A DNA stretch of 38,214 bases, taken from positions 1-38,214 of IMG/VR virus record IMGVR_UViG_3300046167_000070; one strand, written 5' to 3'. The notes under the pieces were generated by a model, which saw only the letters and a program-made list of their open reading frames with translations, was not told where the DNA came from and did not search any database. This DNA is from a virus. This document shows, piece after piece, positions 902 to 38,214 of the stretch; within the stretch, counting starts at the first letter, position 1; each line of letters starts with the position of its first letter. The translations under genes were made by a program, and so were the position numbers.

Positions 902-913
902 GGGGGCTTAACC

Positions 914-1687
914 ATGAGGGGAACTTTAGAAACTCAGTTATCACTAGAACAAGAGATGATAACAGCAGGTATAGAACGATACCGTAAGGATTTAGACAAG
1001 GCTATTGCCAGTAAGTCTGAGTCTCGCACCCAACATGGACAGGTCATTGTATCACGCACTGTTAGTGCTGTTGCAACAGGAGTAAAGGAACTAATAGACA
1101 ACCCTAAGTCCAACAGGGATATAACTTACGGTCTTATTAAAGACATGAAGGTAGAAGAGGTAGCCTACCTGTCACTGATTACCCTGATAGATGGTATCTC
1201 ACACAGGCAGGGGCTACTGTACCTAGCACACATCATTGGTGGTGCTATTGAAATGCAGGACAGACTAGACAGGTGGGTAGCAGATGAGGGTGACGTAGCA
1301 CGTAACACCATCAAGCTGGCACTGAAGAAGTCTAGTAATGCTAGACGCTACGGCCTGACACACAAGATGAACAAGGATGGGTTCAAACATACAGAGTGGA
1401 ACAAGTCTGACCGTATCCACGTAGGCTGTAGGATGATAGATGTAGTTGTAAGAACTACAGGTCTAGTAGAGTTACAGAAGCAGAGGTCAGGTAAGACTAA
1501 GACTACCACAATTGTTAAGGCTACCTCAGAGACTGAGGCATGGATCAATGGCTTTAGGCAGTACACTGAGACAGCAAGGCCACGCTTTGCACCCTGTCTC
1601 ATAGTACCTAAGGACTGGACAAGCGTAACAGGTGGTGGATACCACAGTGATTACATACCAGAGCTACCGATAGTGAGGCGAAGATGA
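914..1687 (+). CDS. T7-type RNA polymerase, N-terminal part (split)
   Basis: This 257-residue ORF aligns with the N-terminal domain of T7 RNA polymerase (about residues 35-315). Shared landmarks include the HVGxRxI segment and the PK-x-WTxxTGGGY motif just before the domain boundary. In T7 this domain holds the AT-rich recognition and promoter-melting elements and the emerging RNA. The ORF stops at TGA 1685-1687, and the catalytic part continues in another frame from 1684 with no loss of aligned sequence. It may be a real subunit, as in the two-subunit RNAPII of phage N4, or the result of one missing base. An AGGGGG-type Shine-Dalgarno precedes the ATG. Confidence 0.9.
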   Translation: MRGTLETQLSLEQEMITAGIERYRKDLDKAIASKSESRTQHGQVIVSRTVSAVATGVKELIDNPKSNRDITYGLIKDMKVEEVAYLSLITLIDGISHRQGLLYLAHIIGGAIEMQDRLDRWVADEGDVARNTIKLALKKSSNARRYGLTHKMNKDGFKHTEWNKSDRIHVGCRMIDVVVRTTGLVELQKQRSGKTKTTTIVKATSETEAWINGFRQYTETARPRFAPCLIVPKDWTSVTGGGYHSDYIPELPIVRRR

Positions 1688-3327
1688 GTGTAGGTGAACA
1701 GTTAAGAAGACTAGAGGACGCTGAGTTAGGTCAGGAATACTCATGCCTTAACGCACTACAGCGTACTGCATGGCAGATCAACAAGCCTGTGCTACAGGTA
1801 CTGCGTACTGTATGGGATGGTGGACAGCAGTGGGGTAAGCTACCTGCAAAGGATGACCTACCTCTACCCATGTATCCCTTTGACAAAGACCCTAAGGAAT
1901 TGACTGGGGCAGACAGAGAAGAGTTTGTGCTATGGTCACGACAGCGTAATGCTATCTACTCCCATAACAATCGCACCGTGAGCAAGCGCATACAGGTTGA
2001 GCGTACACTGCAAGTAGCTGAAGACTATGCCAAGCATGATGAGTTTTATTATGTATGGCAGAATGACTTCAGGTCACGCAAGTATGCTAGCTGTACCTTC
2101 CTCTCTCCTCAGTCAGCAGACTGGAGCAAGTCACTCCTTACATTTAGTAATGGTGTGGCTATCAACAACTGGGATGAGGCACGGTGGTTGTGTATTCATG
2201 GTGCTAACCTGTATGGTAACGACAAGATCACACTAGACCAGCGTGAGTCATGGGCATGGGACAAGTCAGATGAGTTCGTCCGTATTGCTGAGAACCCTTA
2301 CGATAATCTGCTGTGGCTTGAGGCTGACAAGCCTTACCAATTCCTAGCATGGTGCTTTGAGTTCGCACAGCTAGTACGTCAGGGCTGGGGTTACATCTCA
2401 ACCCTACCTGTGTCAGCAGATGGCAGTTGTAATGGATTACAGCACCTCTCAGCCATCCTAAGGGATGAGCGTGGGGGTAGGGCTACCAATCTACTACCTG
2501 CCGCACAGCCTCAGGATATCTACACTGAGGTAGCAATGGAAGCTATGGCACGTGTGATGAACGAGGACACAGAGTTATCACGCCAGTGGAAGAGGTTTGG
2601 TGTCTCTCGTAAGCTAACCAAGAGGCCAGTGATGATCGTACCATACTCAGGTACTAAGCACTCATGTAGAGCCTACATCCAAGAGGCTATGGAAGAACAG
2701 ATCAACGATACAGGTGACAATCCCTTTGGTGAAGACCTGTTCCCTGCAAGTGTATACCTTGCTAACTATGTATGGGATGCTATCAGTAATGTAATCGTTG
2801 CAGCCAGCAGGGTGATGGACTATATCAAATCAGTAGGAGATGTATATGCTGACGTAAACAAACACATGGAGTGGGTCACACCCACAGGCTGGCTAGTGTT
2901 ACAGTCATACAATAACACAACAACCAAACGCATCAAGACACACATCAATGGCGAGATCGTCAAGCTTAACATGCTTGAGGAACAGTCAACAGTATCACGC
3001 AGACGTACAGGTTCAGGCAGTAGCCCTAACTTCATCCACTCTCTGGATGCAGCAGCTATGACCAAGACCATCAATGCCTGTGTGAACCGTGGCATCCTAG
3101 ACTTTGCTATGGTACATGATAGCTATGGCACACACAGTAGCCTGATGCCTATGATGTCTGACCTTATACGTCAGGAGTTTGTTAGGATGTACGAGCAGCA
3201 TGATGTGTTGACTGAGTTAAGAGATCATGCTATACAAACTTTAGGTACAGAGGATGTCCCTCTGCCACCAGCACTAGGTGACTTAGACATACGCAGGGTA
3301 CTACAGTCTGAATACTTCTTTGCTTAG
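1684..3327 (+). CDS. T7-type RNA polymerase, catalytic part
   Basis: This 547-residue ORF holds the whole polymerase domain of a single-subunit phage RNA polymerase. Motif A is SADGSCNGLQH (catalytic Asp at D246), motif B is KRPVMIVPY (K313, Y321, matching T7 K631 and Y639), and motif C is HDSYG (D479). The C-terminus ends in FFA, like the T7 FAFA end, so it is complete. The region around residues 415-445, where T7 has its promoter specificity loop, is present. The ATG lies in an ATGA overlap with the N-terminal ORF and has GAGG five bases upstream, so independent initiation is plausible. It should transcribe the phage genes from the CCCCTATT-type sites. Confidence 0.95.
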   Translation: MSVGEQLRRLEDAELGQEYSCLNALQRTAWQINKPVLQVLRTVWDGGQQWGKLPAKDDLPLPMYPFDKDPKELTGADREEFVLWSRQRNAIYSHNNRTVSKRIQVERTLQVAEDYAKHDEFYYVWQNDFRSRKYASCTFLSPQSADWSKSLLTFSNGVAINNWDEARWLCIHGANLYGNDKITLDQRESWAWDKSDEFVRIAENPYDNLLWLEADKPYQFLAWCFEFAQLVRQGWGYISTLPVSADGSCNGLQHLSAILRDERGGRATNLLPAAQPQDIYTEVAMEAMARVMNEDTELSRQWKRFGVSRKLTKRPVMIVPYSGTKHSCRAYIQEAMEEQINDTGDNPFGEDLFPASVYLANYVWDAISNVIVAASRVMDYIKSVGDVYADVNKHMEWVTPTGWLVLQSYNNTTTKRIKTHINGEIVKLNMLEEQSTVSRRRTGSGSSPNFIHSLDAAAMTKTINACVNRGILDFAMVHDSYGTHSSLMPMMSDLIRQEFVRMYEQHDVLTELRDHAIQTLGTEDVPLPPALGDLDIRRVLQSEYFFA

Positions 3328-6569: not shown

Positions 6570-7929
6570 GGCATGGGGCTACAGACTAGGAGAATTAAAA
6601 GGTGATTACAATAGTGGCAGCGAGAGCTTTGCAGCATATACCCCTGAGATGCTCGACTACTGCATCCAAGACACAGCAGTTACAAACAAACTGTATCGTA
6701 AAATTATGGAGAAAAATTTTAGCCAATTGGCACTAGACCTAGAAGCTGAAATCCATACCCTACTACTACAACAACAAGAGCATGGCTTTGACTTCAATGT
6801 ACAGGAAGCTCAGGCTCTTTACAGTAGGCTAGCACAACGTAGGTCTGACATTGAGGATGAGTTAGTCAGTACCTTTGAACCTACTATCATTGAGTTAAAG
6901 ACTAAGACAAAGACTATCCCATTCAACCCAGCATCACGTATGCAGATTGCAGACAGACTAATGAAGCGTGGTTGGAAACCCAAAGCGTTCACTGACAGTG
7001 GTGAGCCTAAGGTAGATGAGACTGTCCTATCTGGTATTGACATGCCAGAGGCTAGACTACTACAGGAATATCTACTACTCAACAAACGCATAGGCCAACT
7101 AGCTACAGGCAAACAGGCATGGCTGAAGATGGAGAAGGGTGGAAAGATTCATGGACGTGTCAATCATATGGGTGCTGTCACCTCTCGTTGTACTCATTCC
7201 AATCCTAACACAGCGCAGATACCAAGTGTGGGTGCGCCATATGGCAAGGAGTGTAGAGAACTATTCATCTCTCCTAGCGGGTATAGTCTACTTGGTGCTG
7301 ATGCTAGCGGTCTTGAGCTACGTTGTCTTGCTCATTATATGGCTGCTTATGACGATGGATCGTATGCTGATGTGGTCTTGAATGGTGACATTCATACTGC
7401 TAACCAGAAGGCTGCTGGTCTTGAGTCACGTAATCAGGCTAAGACATTCATCTATGGATTTCTTTATGGTTCAGGTGATGAGAAGACAGGCAAGATCATA
7501 GGCAAGGGTGCGAAGGAAGGTAAGGCAATCAAGCAGAAGTTCTTGAAGAAACTACCAGCCCTCAAGTATCTTAAGGATGCAGTATCTAAGGCTGCTGATG
7601 AACGAGGCTGGGTCAAGGGATTGGATGGACGTATCATTCCTATCCGACACAGCCACGCTGCACTGAACACTCTACTACAGAGTGCTGGTGCTATAATCTG
7701 TAAGACATGGTATGTGTTTATCTCACGTGCCATTAAGAAAGCCAAGCTGGACGCACAGATTGTAGCGTTCATCCATGATGAAGTTCAAGTAGTAGTAAAG
7801 AAGGGACAGGAAGATGAGACAGGGCGAGTTATTCTTGAGTGTATGCGGGACGTTGAAAGACACTTCAACTTCAGATGTAGACTCGACAGTGAGTACAAGT
7901 ACGGAAGCAACTGGGCAGACACCCACTAA
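6547..7929 (+). CDS. DNA polymerase, polymerase domain (family A, T7 gp5-like)
   Basis: Homology starts at base 6547 (LIGSHSLKAWGYRLGELKG); the first in-frame ATG is 6649. Exonuclease motif III is YCIQDTAVT. The polymerase domain has motif A GADASGLELRCLAHYMA, the O-helix RNQAKTFIYGFLYGSGDEK with Tyr at the T7 Y526 position, motif C FIHDEVQ, and an end (NWADTH) like T7 NWAICH. With both doublets corrected the protein is 568 residues against 704 in T7. Much of the difference is the thioredoxin-binding insert, which is absent: only about 19 residues lie between STF and FNPAS. Confidence 0.9.
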   Translation, partial: LIGSHSLKAWGYRLGELKGDYNSGSESFAAYTPEMLDYCIQDTAVTNKLYRKIMEKNFSQLALDLEAEIHTLLLQQQEHGFDFNVQEAQALYSRLAQRRSDIEDELVSTFEPTIIELKTKTKTIPFNPASRMQIADRLMKRGWKPKAFTDSGEPKVDETVLSGIDMPEARLLQEYLLLNKRIGQLATGKQAWLKMEKGGKIHGRVNHMGAVTSRCTHSNPNTAQIPSVGAPYGKECRELFISPSGYSLLGADASGLELRCLAHYMAAYDDGSYADVVLNGDIHTANQKAAGLESRNQAKTFIYGFLYGSGDEKTGKIIGKGAKEGKAIKQKFLKKLPALKYLKDAVSKAADERGWVKGLDGRIIPIRHSHAALNTLLQSAGAIICKTWYVFISRAIKKAKLDAQIVAFIHDEVQVVVKKGQEDETGRVILECMRDVERHFNFRCRLDSEYKYGSNWADTH

Positions 7930-8374
7930 TCCAAAGACAGGTAAACCTTTTTTCTATAAGGATAATCCAGAAGCAGTACGTAAACGTGATGCTAATAGAA
8001 TGTATGTTAATGGTAAAGAAGTTTCCAAGAAGCACCCACTACATAAAGCTGGTAGGTATAAATCTTGGGATGACGTACACAGTCATAACTTAATTAACAC
8101 TGTTAAAGAAGGTAGTGTTTATATCATTACTAATAGTGCTTGGCCTGAGTGGGTAAAGATAGGCATGGCTCTTGATGCAGAAGATAGACTAAACGGTTAT
8201 CAGACTAGTAGTCCAATGCGTGATTACAAGCTGATGTATTCTGTATCTACTAATGACAGACGTAAGACTGAGGCTGCTGCACACAAGGCTGCTGAGAAGA
8301 TAGCTGAACGTAGGGGTGAATGGTTTAAGATGTCTGTTGGTCAGGCAAAGGAGTGTATCCAGAATGGACTTTGA
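7814..8374 (+). CDS. GIY-YIG / T5orf172-type putative nuclease
   Basis: The 186-residue ORF overlaps the polymerase 3' end by 116 bases; AAGGG precedes ATG 7814, and GTG 7889 is an alternative start. Residues 100-118 (GSVYIITN to VKIG) match the GIY...YIG core of T5orf172/MUG113-type domains. An Arg follows in DRL, then a conserved Glu in KTEAAAHKAAEKI, then GEWFKM. The upstream part (about 38-90) is basic, perhaps DNA-binding. Such genes beside phage polymerases are often free-standing homing endonucleases, but no intron or target site is demonstrable here. Confidence 0.75.
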   Translation: MRQGELFLSVCGTLKDTSTSDVDSTVSTSTEATGQTPTNPKTGKPFFYKDNPEAVRKRDANRMYVNGKEVSKKHPLHKAGRYKSWDDVHSHNLINTVKEGSVYIITNSAWPEWVKIGMALDAEDRLNGYQTSSPMRDYKLMYSVSTNDRRKTEAAAHKAAEKIAERRGEWFKMSVGQAKECIQNGL

Positions 8375-35424: not shown

Positions 35425-35648
35425 AGATACCTACAAAACCTAAGAATACTAATAAGTATAAAAAGAAAGTTAGTGCTTATTCTACTGCTGAAAAGATACT
35501 TGATCCTTATGTAATGGGTAAATCTACTGCAAAAGAAGTTCAGAAGAAACTAAAAGCTCAGGGCATGGGTGCTGACTTACGTGGTAAGGACTCTGAGATT
35601 GAAGTGTTTACTTTAGATGGTTCAACCAGTTTTAAGGTGCAGATGTAA
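35421..35648 (+). CDS. Hypothetical basic protein
   Basis: I chose GTG 35421, because AGGAG lies 7 bases upstream; GTG 35415 would be too close. The 75-residue product has a Lys-rich start (KIPTKPKNTNKYKKKVSAYS) and a mixed helical/beta remainder, ending STSFKVQM. The NKYKKK motif also ends the gene at 34877. The stop overlaps the terS start. The function is unknown. Confidence 0.65.
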   Translation: MKIPTKPKNTNKYKKKVSAYSTAEKILDPYVMGKSTAKEVQKKLKAQGMGADLRGKDSEIEVFTLDGSTSFKVQM

Positions 35649-35863
35649 TGACAGAAAAACAACTGATAGACAGCTTGCATGAGGCTGTCACCCAAGAGCT
35701 ACTACTTAGAGTACGTGGTGGGGAAGCTACAGCTAGTGAACTATCAGTGGCTGTTAAGTTTCTTAAAGACAATGGAGCATCCCTAGATGCAATCATGGCA
35801 GAAAGCCCTATGGCTAACCTTCTTAATGATCTGCCGTTTGATGCAGCGGAGAAGATGCAATGA
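35648..35863 (+). CDS. Small terminase subunit, T7 gp18-like
   Basis: The 71-residue helical protein sits before terL, separated only by a spanin-like gene, exactly as gp18 does in T7 (89 aa). The helix LIDSLHEAVTQELLLRVRGG followed by ATASELSVAVKFLKDNGASL matches small terminases of T7-like phages, which recognise DNA and start packaging. Sequence identity to T7 is low, so the call rests on pattern and position. It starts in a TAATG overlap and ends in an ATGA overlap. Confidence 0.75.
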   Translation: MTEKQLIDSLHEAVTQELLLRVRGGEATASELSVAVKFLKDNGASLDAIMAESPMANLLNDLPFDAAEKMQ

Positions 35864-36150
35864 AACAAGTAGCAACACGGCTCAACGAGGCTAGTGAGGT
35901 AACTATACCCTTACGCAATCTTATAAGTATGATTGCCTTTACAGCCGTATCAGTTTGGGTTTATTTCGGATTGACAGAGCGAATATCTTTCTTAGAACAC
36001 AATCTTGAATTAGCTATGGCTGAAGTAGAAGAAAACGATCAGTGGATTGATGCTTTTCAGCCACCTAAGAATGTACAAGATACTATTGAAAAAGTACACC
36101 AGTTAGAAATAGACATAGAAAAAATAAAGTTTGTACTTGGGAATAGATAA
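35860..36150 (+). CDS. Putative inner-membrane spanin, T7 gp18.5 position
   Basis: The 96-residue protein has one membrane segment (about 18-38: LRNLISMIAFTAVSVWVYFG) followed by a periplasmic coiled-coil-like region (SFLEHNLELAMAEVEENDQW and QDTIEKVHQLEIDIEKIKFV). This is the Rz/i-spanin layout, and T7 also carries its Rz homologue gp18.5 between gp18 and gp19. An outer-membrane partner is not obvious; the cysteine mini-proteins at 34100 and 34300 are candidates. Confidence 0.65.
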   Translation: MKQVATRLNEASEVTIPLRNLISMIAFTAVSVWVYFGLTERISFLEHNLELAMAEVEENDQWIDAFQPPKNVQDTIEKVHQLEIDIEKIKFVLGNR

Positions 36151-36473
36151 TGGTTAATGTACCAGAACAACTTAAAGACTTTAGAAACTTTACATACCTT
36201 GTATGGCAGCATTTAGGACTACCAGCACCTACAGATATTCAGTATGATATCGCTAACTACCTTCAGGACAGCCCTAAGCGTTGTATTATTGAGGCTTTCC
36301 GTGGTGTAGGTAAGTCCTACATTACTGCTGCCTACGTTGTACACCAGCTACTGCTAGACCCACAGCTTAAATTTATGGTTGTGTCAGCGTCTAAGGCACG
36401 TGCTGATGACTTTTCTACCTTTACACAGCGTATTATCATGGAACTGCCTATATGCCAGCACCTAGTCGGCTAA
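36150..36473 (+). CDS. Large terminase, ATPase N-terminal part (frame-broken)
   Basis: The 107-residue ORF matches the start of T7 gp19: FTYLVWQHLGLPAPTDIQYD, Walker A EAFRGVGKSYIT (about 50-57) and DPQLKFMVVSASKARADDFS. Homology ends at base 36468, where the frame breaks to a TAA at 36471. Removing one G of the GG doublet at 36468-36469 gives HLVAKEGQRWSKIAFD, in register with T7. The rest of the enzyme follows in the next frame. Confidence 0.85.
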   Translation: MVNVPEQLKDFRNFTYLVWQHLGLPAPTDIQYDIANYLQDSPKRCIIEAFRGVGKSYITAAYVVHQLLLDPQLKFMVVSASKARADDFSTFTQRIIMELPICQHLVG

Positions 36474-37827
36474 GGAAGGCCAGAGATGGTCTAAGATAGC
36501 CTTTGATGTAGCCCCTGCTAAAGCCTCTGGTAGCCCCTCAGTAAAGTCTGTAGGGGTCACAGGGCAGCTTACAGGTAGCCGTGCAGACATTATCATTGCT
36601 GATGACGTTGAAGTCCCTAACAACTCCATGACACACATGATGCGGGAGAAACTTGCAGAGACAGTCAAGGAGTTTGACGCTGTTCTTAAGCCTGATGGCA
36701 GGATTATATACTTAGGAACCCCCCAGTGTGAGATGTCCCTGTACAACGCCCTACTTGCACGTGGTTATAAGATGCGTGTATGGCCCGCAAGATACCCTAC
36801 CCTAGATCGCGCAGAGAAGGCCTATGGGGGCAGGTTAGCTCCTACGCTGTATGATTCCTTACAAACTAACCTAGAGGCCGTGTATGGGCTTCCTACAGAC
36901 CCTAAACGATTTGATGATGATGACTTACTAGAAAGAGAACTAAGTTATGGTAGAAGTGGCTTTGCTTTGCAATTTATGTTGGATACTTCACTATCTGATG
37001 CAAACAAATACCCCCTTAAACTAAGTGACCTACTTGTTTACTCCTGTGATAAGGATACTGCACCTGAAAAACTAGTGTATGGTATCTTTAAACCCCTAGA
37101 TGAACTACCAAATGTAGGGCTAGCAGGAGACAAGTTCTACGCTCCTGAGGACACTGTAGGACGTACAGAGTATCAGGGTAGCGTACTAGCCATTGACCCC
37201 TCTGGTAGAGGCTCTGATGAGACAGCATACGCTGTTGTAAAGATGCTTAATGGTTTTCTGCATGTTGTAGATGCTGGTGGTGTTGCTGGTGGCTACTCAG
37301 ACAGTACACTACAACACCTGTGTGACTTGGCTAAGATACACAAGGTTAATATGGTGCTGGTAGAGAGTAACTTTGGTGACGGTATGTTTACTGAGCTACT
37401 AAAGCCCTACCTACTCAAGACACATCCAGTGACTATAGAAGAGGTACGCCACAGTAAGCAGAAGGAACACAGGATCATTGACACCCTAGAGCCTGTAATG
37501 AACCAGCATAGGCTTGTTATAGACCCTAAGGTTATCCAGAAGGACTATGATAGCGTACAGTCTATGCCCCCTGAGAAGGGTATTAAGTACATGCTAACCT
37601 ATCAGATGACACGTATAACAAAGCAGCGAGGAGCGTTAGCACATGACGATAGACTTGACGTTCTTGCTATGGCAGTGCAGTACTGGACAGACCAGATGGC
37701 TGCTGACGCAGATACAGAAATACGAACAAGGAAAGAGGAACTCCTAGACTTTGAGCTTGATAAGTTCATGTCACACCTTAACATAGGTCAGAAGGAGAAG
37801 GATGTAGGGGGCTGGGTGGTACTATAA
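36469..37827 (+). CDS. Large terminase, main part (T7 gp19-like)
   Basis: Homology begins at 36469 (AKEGQRWSKIAFD); the first in-frame ATG is 36628. It contains SPSVKSVGVTGQLTGSRADI, Walker B IIIADDVE, LGTPQCEMSLYN, the nuclease core LAIDPSGRGSDETAYAVV, VESNFGDGMF, and ALAHDDRLDVLAMAVQYW. The protein pumps DNA into the procapsid with ATP and cuts concatemers. With one base removed the full product is 558 residues (T7: 586). The first part lacks a start codon, so as written it could not be made whole. Confidence 0.93.
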   Translation, partial: AKEGQRWSKIAFDVAPAKASGSPSVKSVGVTGQLTGSRADIIIADDVEVPNNSMTHMMREKLAETVKEFDAVLKPDGRIIYLGTPQCEMSLYNALLARGYKMRVWPARYPTLDRAEKAYGGRLAPTLYDSLQTNLEAVYGLPTDPKRFDDDDLLERELSYGRSGFALQFMLDTSLSDANKYPLKLSDLLVYSCDKDTAPEKLVYGIFKPLDELPNVGLAGDKFYAPEDTVGRTEYQGSVLAIDPSGRGSDETAYAVVKMLNGFLHVVDAGGVAGGYSDSTLQHLCDLAKIHKVNMVLVESNFGDGMFTELLKPYLLKTHPVTIEEVRHSKQKEHRIIDTLEPVMNQHRLVIDPKVIQKDYDSVQSMPPEKGIKYMLTYQMTRITKQRGALAHDDRLDVLAMAVQYWTDQMAADADTEIRTRKEELLDFELDKFMSHLNIGQKEKDVGGWVVL

Positions 37828-37834
37828 TACCGTT

Positions 37835-37852
37835 CCGAAGGTTCCCCTATTG
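37835..37852 (+). promoter_or_regulatory. Candidate phage RNAP promoter at the right end
   Basis: CCGAAGGTTCCCCTATTG lies just after the terL stop. It matches the site at 3328 at 15 of 18 positions, with the last 12 identical. T7 has its phi-OR promoter in the same place, past gene 19.5, where it serves right-end replication or packaging. No downstream gene is visible, so a non-coding role is likely. Confidence 0.6.
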
Positions 37853-37884
37853 ACTAGACCCCCCTAAGATATATATAGTAGGTA

Positions 37885-37958
37885 GTAGTAAGTAGTATCT
37901 TTAGGTACTTAAAGTATCTTTAAGATGTTATAGGATACTTAGGACTACTACTTACTAC
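37885..37958. repeat. Nested inverted repeat at the right end
   Basis: GTAGTAAGTAGTA (37885-37897) is the exact reverse complement of TACTACTTACTAC (37946-37958). Inside are AAGTATC/GATACTT (37912-37918 with 37934-37940) and a direct repeat AGTATCTTTA (37894-37903 and 37913-37922). The DNA is AT-rich and could form a cruciform or hairpin. Similar structures near T7 ends take part in concatemer processing; the role here is inferred. Confidence 0.7.
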
Positions 37959-38086
37959 TTACTAACTCCTTATTAACCTGCTAAAAGAATAAGGCAGTAG
38001 TGTGTATGACCTAAAATACCCTAAAAAATCTGAGGGGGTATATAATATGATCAGACGCGCGACTCCCCCCATGATGCTGCGACACC

Positions 38087-38173
38087 TTACAATCTTAGGC
38101 ACGCCTAACATTCTTCTGGTTCCATTAGAAACCTTGGCATCCTTTACAATCTTAGCCACGCCTAACATTCTTC
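38087..38173. repeat. 57-base-period tandem repeat
   Basis: A 30-base unit starting TTACAATCTTAG at 38087-38116 recurs at 38144-38173 with one mismatch (base 38099 G, base 38156 C). The bases after each copy (GTTC...GCAT) are also weakly alike. Short repeats flank the terminal redundancy of T7, so this may mark proximity to the physical end. The minus strand is open across it, giving MLGVxKIV repeats, but without other coding signs. Confidence 0.75.
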
Positions 38174-38214
38174 AAGTTCTTTAAGATTTTTAGCATTGCC
38201 TGTGTCTCTCTCTC

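Follow-up and report, generated by a model that had tools for sequence, protein, structure and literature searches.

The stretch between the large terminase gene and the right end of IMG/VR record IMGVR_UViG_3300046167_000070 raises the question of whether a physical genome end lies there, or whether its repeats and promoter-like site serve some other purpose. The window (the whole 38,214-base stretch analysed, positions 1 to 38,214 of that record) has the gene order of a T7-like phage in profile searches, from phage RNA polymerase to TerL. The set comprises a phage RNA polymerase, gp2.5-like SSB, endonuclease I, primase-helicase, DNA polymerase and exonuclease, together with ribonucleotide reductase, portal, scaffold, capsid, tail proteins, lysozyme, TerS and TerL. 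The top isolate match of TerL is Roseobacter phage CRP-125 (59%); megablast of positions 13000-36000 against phage isolates gave no match, and scans of the window for Rfam families (at gathering scores) and tRNAs returned none. The region under study, from the terL stop (37827) to the record end, lies directly downstream of the T7-type terminase genes TerS and TerL. In this uncultured marine phage it is very probably the right-hand part of a T7-type concatemer junction, where copied DNA would be cut and packaged, that is, a genome end of a known kind, whose function we infer from position and conservation. The order of the elements is itself observed: a promoter-like site, a hairpin, a left-boundary word and a C6 run follow one another behind terL.

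35648-35860, TerS (phrog_891 match), upstream of terL
36150-37827, plus strand, terL, T7-type large terminase, in two ORFs (36150-36473 and 36628-37827)
37836-37853, plus strand, candidate phage-RNA-polymerase promoter (phiOR equivalent), member of an 18-mer family with two mismatches
37879-37964, no strand, palindrome or hairpin between terL and the left cut, arms 37879-37897 and 37946-37964
38024-38045, plus strand, left-boundary word AAAAATCTGAGGGGGTA^TATAA, predicted cut between 38040 and 38041
38041-38214, no strand, predicted direct terminal repeat, right copy, last base missing (38041-38215, 175 bp in all)
38065-38070, plus strand, C-run (C6), 24 bases inside the predicted left end
38087-38129 and 38144-38186, no strand, direct repeat of two 43-nt copies, 86% identical, start-to-start distance 57
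38200-38214, plus strand, CTGTGTCTCTCTCTC, left flank of the right-boundary word, with the word T^ATCTGTT beyond the window end in relatives L003-L006

Both pieces of terL match PHROG terminase large subunit families, and the second corresponds to PF22530 (Terminase-T7 RNaseH-like). The frame is open for at least 480 nt further upstream in all 74 loci with room for it and is broken in the window, where terL is one base longer than in each of seven aligned relatives; the interruption is probably a sequencing error or a defective copy. Comparison with L005 and L006 indicates that ~3.2 kb is absent between the right cut and the first base of the window, and the whole genome would be ~41.6 kb. As a separate observation within the gene set, an ORF at 7814-8374 overlaps the end of the DNA polymerase ORF (426 aa in the window); most of the families it resembles have no assigned function, and one carries the label homing endonuclease (phrog_18411, E 4e-5).

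Boundary words and the ends of isolate genomes

The four closest relatives by TerL (L003-L006, 99-100% identity) read past the window end as ...TCTCTCTCT^ATCTGTT, in the context TCTCTCTC|TATCTGTTCTTG, and the window therefore lacks the last base before the predicted right end. The length of the predicted repeat was derived from the T7 spacing at the left cut and the distance between the left word and ATCTGTT in L003; the window contains one copy, and the left genome end is absent. The physical end thus appears to be predictable almost to the base from the two boundary words.

The match of these words to the ends of sequenced isolates is direct. For eleven isolates the ends were compared and the longest identical end repeat was computed, giving 160 bases for T7, 231 for T3, 174 for SP6, 237 for Syn5, 206 for P-SSP7, 414 for phiKMV, 244 for LUZ100, 512 for RHEph01 and 178 for K1F; the HTVC011P and SIO1 records have no identical end repeat. 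At the left boundary, TGA[A/G] followed by six bases and the repeat start is found in T7, T3, K1F, P-SSP7 and Syn5 (5/9 records with an end repeat), and T7 and T3 share AAAAATCTGA exactly with the window, their repeats starting seven bases after it. phiKMV has TGAG plus five bases, and the pattern does not hold for SP6, LUZ100 or RHEph01. On the right side, ATCTGTT comes directly after the repeat in T7, T3 and Syn5, is shifted by one base in SP6 and K1F (ATCTGTA in the latter), reads ACCTGTT in P-SSP7, and is absent in phiKMV, LUZ100 and RHEph01. This is the class II termination word of T7 RNA polymerase, present also in the concatemer junction (PMC11617373), and a template carrying it yielded terminated products from the T7 and Syn5 polymerases and none from the VSW-3 polymerase (PMC9624206). 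Six of these nine isolates (T7, T3, Syn5, P-SSP7, phiKMV and K1F) have a C-run at +24 to +26; in SP6 it lies at +28 and in LUZ100 at +13, and RHEph01 has none within 60 bases.

The closest parallels are T7 and T3 (NC_001604, NC_003298), in which terL is likewise followed by a phage promoter (annotated as phiOR in T7), AAAAATCTGA[G/A]-N6-^ on the left, a C-run at +25 and ^ATCTGTT on the right, with a repeat length of the same order. Their repeats, however, start with TCTC rather than TATAA, the inner sequence is unrelated by eye, and the distance from promoter to left cut is about 550 bases in T7 compared to about 200 in the window. P-SSP7 and Syn5 (NC_006882, NC_009531) share TGA[A/G]-N6-^ and the C-run, but their left word is only partly alike, and talC and thymidylate synthase lie between terL and the repeat. 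In CRP-125 (OR420743), terL is followed by AAAAATCTGAGGGGGTATACG and, about 25 bases further, by a C-run, but neither ATCTGTT nor ATCTATT was found within 1.5 kb after the left word, and two ORFs separate terL from the word. LUZ100 (OP329100), the promoters of which were mapped by ONT-cappable-seq (PMC10134795), has an annotated phage-specific promoter right behind terL and a 244-bp terminal repeat; it differs in a weak left word (AAAAATGCGAGACGGTA), the cut of which would fall 12 bases before the annotated repeat start. Because of this offset and of a C-run at +13 instead of about +25, that annotated start (L244:601, position 37100 of the record) may be off.

These comparisons bear on the proposal of the sequence-only reading that the region is the equivalent of the T7 right end with new sequences. 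The equivalence is supported by the promoter-like site, the palindrome, the left-word core AAAAATCTGAG and, in L003-L006, an ATCTGTT that starts two bases beyond the window; the novelty is not, the boundary words being common to T7 and T3. Insofar as the T7/T3 left word reaches, in weaker form, into cyanophages and K1F, it is a candidate recognition site for the second terminase cut. Literature searches gave no report, in titles and abstract beginnings and with the classic T7 packaging literature outside their scope, of a left-boundary word common to T7-like phages, and no paper for the left word itself in combination with T7 and terminal repeat.

Recurrence in relatives and competing explanations

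A TerL scan of viral contigs gave 212 places encoding a relative, of which the best 80 were kept as loci. Among these best 80 of 212, 60 extend 620 nt or more beyond terL, and both boundary words occur in 59 of these 60 TerL-selected loci (48 distinct 200-nt junctions), the sole exception, L062, having neither. Neither word turned up in the control, 700,216 strand-bases that precede the terL ends in these loci and were searched with the same left-word pattern. Across the family TCTCTCTATCT[G/A]TT recurs, as does the left word around AAAAATCTGA; the right word is ATCTGTT in 30 and ATCTATT in 29 of the 59 junctions (the second form is a departure from T7), the first CCCC falls at +23 to +26 in 58 of them, and the repeats predicted in relatives span 133 to 211 bp. 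Searching by the right word alone yielded 73 unique junctions. The left word is present in 67; among the remainder, L163, L179 and L188 start inside the repeat, and L177, L180 and L182 lack the word. The left word alone retrieved 93 stretches. Three A's before AATCTGA, outside the search pattern, are invariant in the 67 junctions, whereas the invariance of AATCTGA itself and of the G, T, T and TAA around the cut is built in, since the pattern required them. For the whole marine clade, the two words would allow genome ends to be predicted from sequence, to the base.

Contig ends were also counted, in 24 relative contigs that end at most 700 nt from the left cut (L128, a locus excised from a longer contig, was left out). 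One of the 24, L116 (same contig as L055), ends exactly at the predicted right cut, and another, L117 (same contig as L075), ends five bases after the left cut. As a sign of physical ends, the match at the right cut is only suggestive, because the window was the starting point. The scarcity of contig ends there counts against the junction reading, as do L062, the misfits among the isolates (phiKMV, SP6, LUZ100, RHEph01 and CRP-125), the single repeat copy in the window and the lack of an Amidase_2 match described below. Separately, G013 and L163, from one sample, share their first base, which falls within the repeat, a pattern suggestive of a strain branch.

Upstream of the left word, the inverted repeat with nested repeats described earlier from the sequence proved real: its 19-nt arms are 89% complementary with a perfect 12-nt pair inside, and the best 19-nt inverted match (17/19) exceeds anything in 300 dinucleotide shuffles of 37828-38214 (at most 16). 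The 86-nt hairpin has a folding z of -3.4, with 0/100 shuffles equally stable for a stretch that had been chosen for its hairpin. The stretch from terL to the left word has a mean z of -2.37 in 22 non-redundant family members, compared to -0.33 for 24 control segments of the window (1/24 below -2); half of the members lack a strong excess, only 11 of the 22 falling below -2. In T7, a palindrome left of the repeat is able to form a hairpin end, and folding of the 200 nt left of the repeat gave z values of -2.4 for T7, -1.4 for T3, -3.0 for Syn5, -2.6 for phiKMV, -0.6 for P-SSP7 and 0.0 for SP6.

In some members the hairpin also resembles a terminator, by eye in L040, L053 and L061 (CCCCC...GGGGG, then T's). 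The region might serve only transcription control behind the late operon, as a promoter and terminator hairpin, in a genome that is circularly permuted and packaged by the headful. We regard this as improbable. In its favour, several relatives have a strong hairpin, many contigs continue across the junction, and the ends overlap in some contigs of about 40 kb (by 127 bases in G005, 99 in G016, 84 in G015 and 16 in G002, with no overlap in the other eight tested). A terminator, however, leaves unexplained the presence of two boundary words at the exact ends of the T7 and T3 repeats, and P-SSP7 was also assembled as a circle before sequencing of its virion DNA proved that its ends are fixed (PMC3350473). 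More generally, the terminal repeats of T7-like phages collapse in assemblies, and the ends of environmental genomes often stay hidden (PMC3350473). A terminator scan of 36500-38214 found none.

Inside the predicted terminal repeat, a 57-base tandem repeat had been reported; the 57-spaced copies are real, with 29/30 identities in the best 30-nt window compared to at most 22 in 300 dinucleotide shuffles, but they form a spaced pair rather than a tandem array, and Tandem Repeats Finder detected no 57-base array at score 30. The pair (38087-38186), stressed in the earlier reading, falls within the predicted terminal repeat, and other elements define the ends. The CCTAA-type runs are likewise supported, with five occurrences on the plus strand of 37828-38214 against a shuffle mean of 1.3. 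Of the supposed hairpin-prone stretch, a possible pairing of GGGGG (38034-38038) with CCCCCC (38065-38070) survives; the complete stretch 38041-38214 is no more stably folded than its shuffled versions (z 0.36).

It is very improbable that the window end and these repeats are effects of assembly, namely a stop in a low-complexity CTCTCTC run and a chimera giving rise to the 57-base-spaced repeat. The record does end inside CTCTCTC and the terL frame is interrupted, but L003-L006, which come from other samples, have the same region with CTCTCTC read through and both repeat copies kept, which contradicts the artefact reading as far as the sequence itself is concerned. A protein-coding reading, prompted by ORFs in the window at 37962-38168 (minus) and 38002-38184 (plus), is ruled out for practical purposes by stops in the plus frame of 4/4 closest relatives and by longest minus-strand open stretches of 69 codons in L003 and 43 in L004-L006.

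Candidate promoters, a two-piece polymerase and a possible pause word

The earlier reading had placed a promoter-like site behind terL. Its sigma-70-type match (37850-37879) is ordinary, with four such sites in 36500-38214 compared to 3.3 expected; the neighbouring 37836-37853, by contrast, belongs to a family defined by the 18-mer CTAAAGTWCCCCTATTRR, which matches the window five times where chance would give 0.22 matches.

3329, plus strand, behind the polymerase gene
11754, plus strand, before the structural genes
26253, plus strand, three mismatches
37836, plus strand, two mismatches, behind terL
912-929, minus strand, two mismatches, in the first codons of the polymerase gene

Relatives carry their own promoter version, TCTAAAGTTACAWC, found with at most one mismatch in 10/10 relatives searched (four to six per genome, none with the reversed-pattern control). 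A looser promoter pattern gave less clean results in G001-G003, with 1, 3 and 0 matches for the respective reversed-pattern controls. A different candidate, GGGGGTATATAATA, was rejected as a repeated promoter, having one perfect site and no excess over chance.

The course of events in T7 runs from a promoter behind terL, by transcription to the pause word, to a terminase cut and a second cut for the next left end. By analogy, the phage RNA polymerase would start at the promoter behind terL, and transcription would run through the hairpin and the terminal repeat and pause at the right boundary, ATCT[G/A]TT. The terminase, whose TerS and TerL genes lie just upstream, would be recruited at the pause and would cut directly before ATCT[G/A]TT, creating the right end where packaging starts. 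A second cut, at AAAAATCTGA-N6-^, would create the left end of the neighbouring genome, and the palindrome possibly helps to regenerate the second repeat copy. Promoter activity, pausing, cutting and the role of the hairpin are in this scheme extrapolated from T7, as are virion DNA molecules with these ends.

The polymerase itself is encoded in two ORFs with a stop/start overlap, 914-1687 (N-terminal, PF14700) and 1684-3327 (catalytic, PF00940). The split recurs in 12/12 relatives fetched (L230-L241), with a further break in the second piece of G002; alignment places the split point near residue 300-307 of the T7 polymerase. A literature search for a split phage RNA polymerase found no obvious match. 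In T7, the Amidase_2 lysozyme works with the polymerase in pausing. Unlike in T7, Amidase_2 (PF01510) was found neither in the window, the left end of which is missing, nor in any of the 12 relatives; the lysozyme of the window is PF00959. The pause, if it matters, works without that partner or with another. Residue R173 of T7 RNA polymerase has been tied to class II termination, and its position has no safe alignment to the window polymerase; an R173C mutant is named in a passage of PMC9624206. We tentatively suggest, as a possibility with rather less than even chances, that the clade has a packaging pause that operates without the T7 lysozyme and with a naturally two-piece RNA polymerase, and that changes in the polymerase accompanied a switch of the pause word between ATCTGTT and ATCTATT. 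If so, the junctions of this family would constitute a natural series in which to study class II pausing by a single-subunit polymerase and the transfer of the DNA to terminase.

Finally, the promoter word found in antisense inside the start of the polymerase gene is present in the window and in 12/12 relatives (L230-L241), three to six bases past the first start codon. Its letters track each genome's own promoter version, to which the search patterns had been fitted, and it may serve self-repression or leftward transcription.
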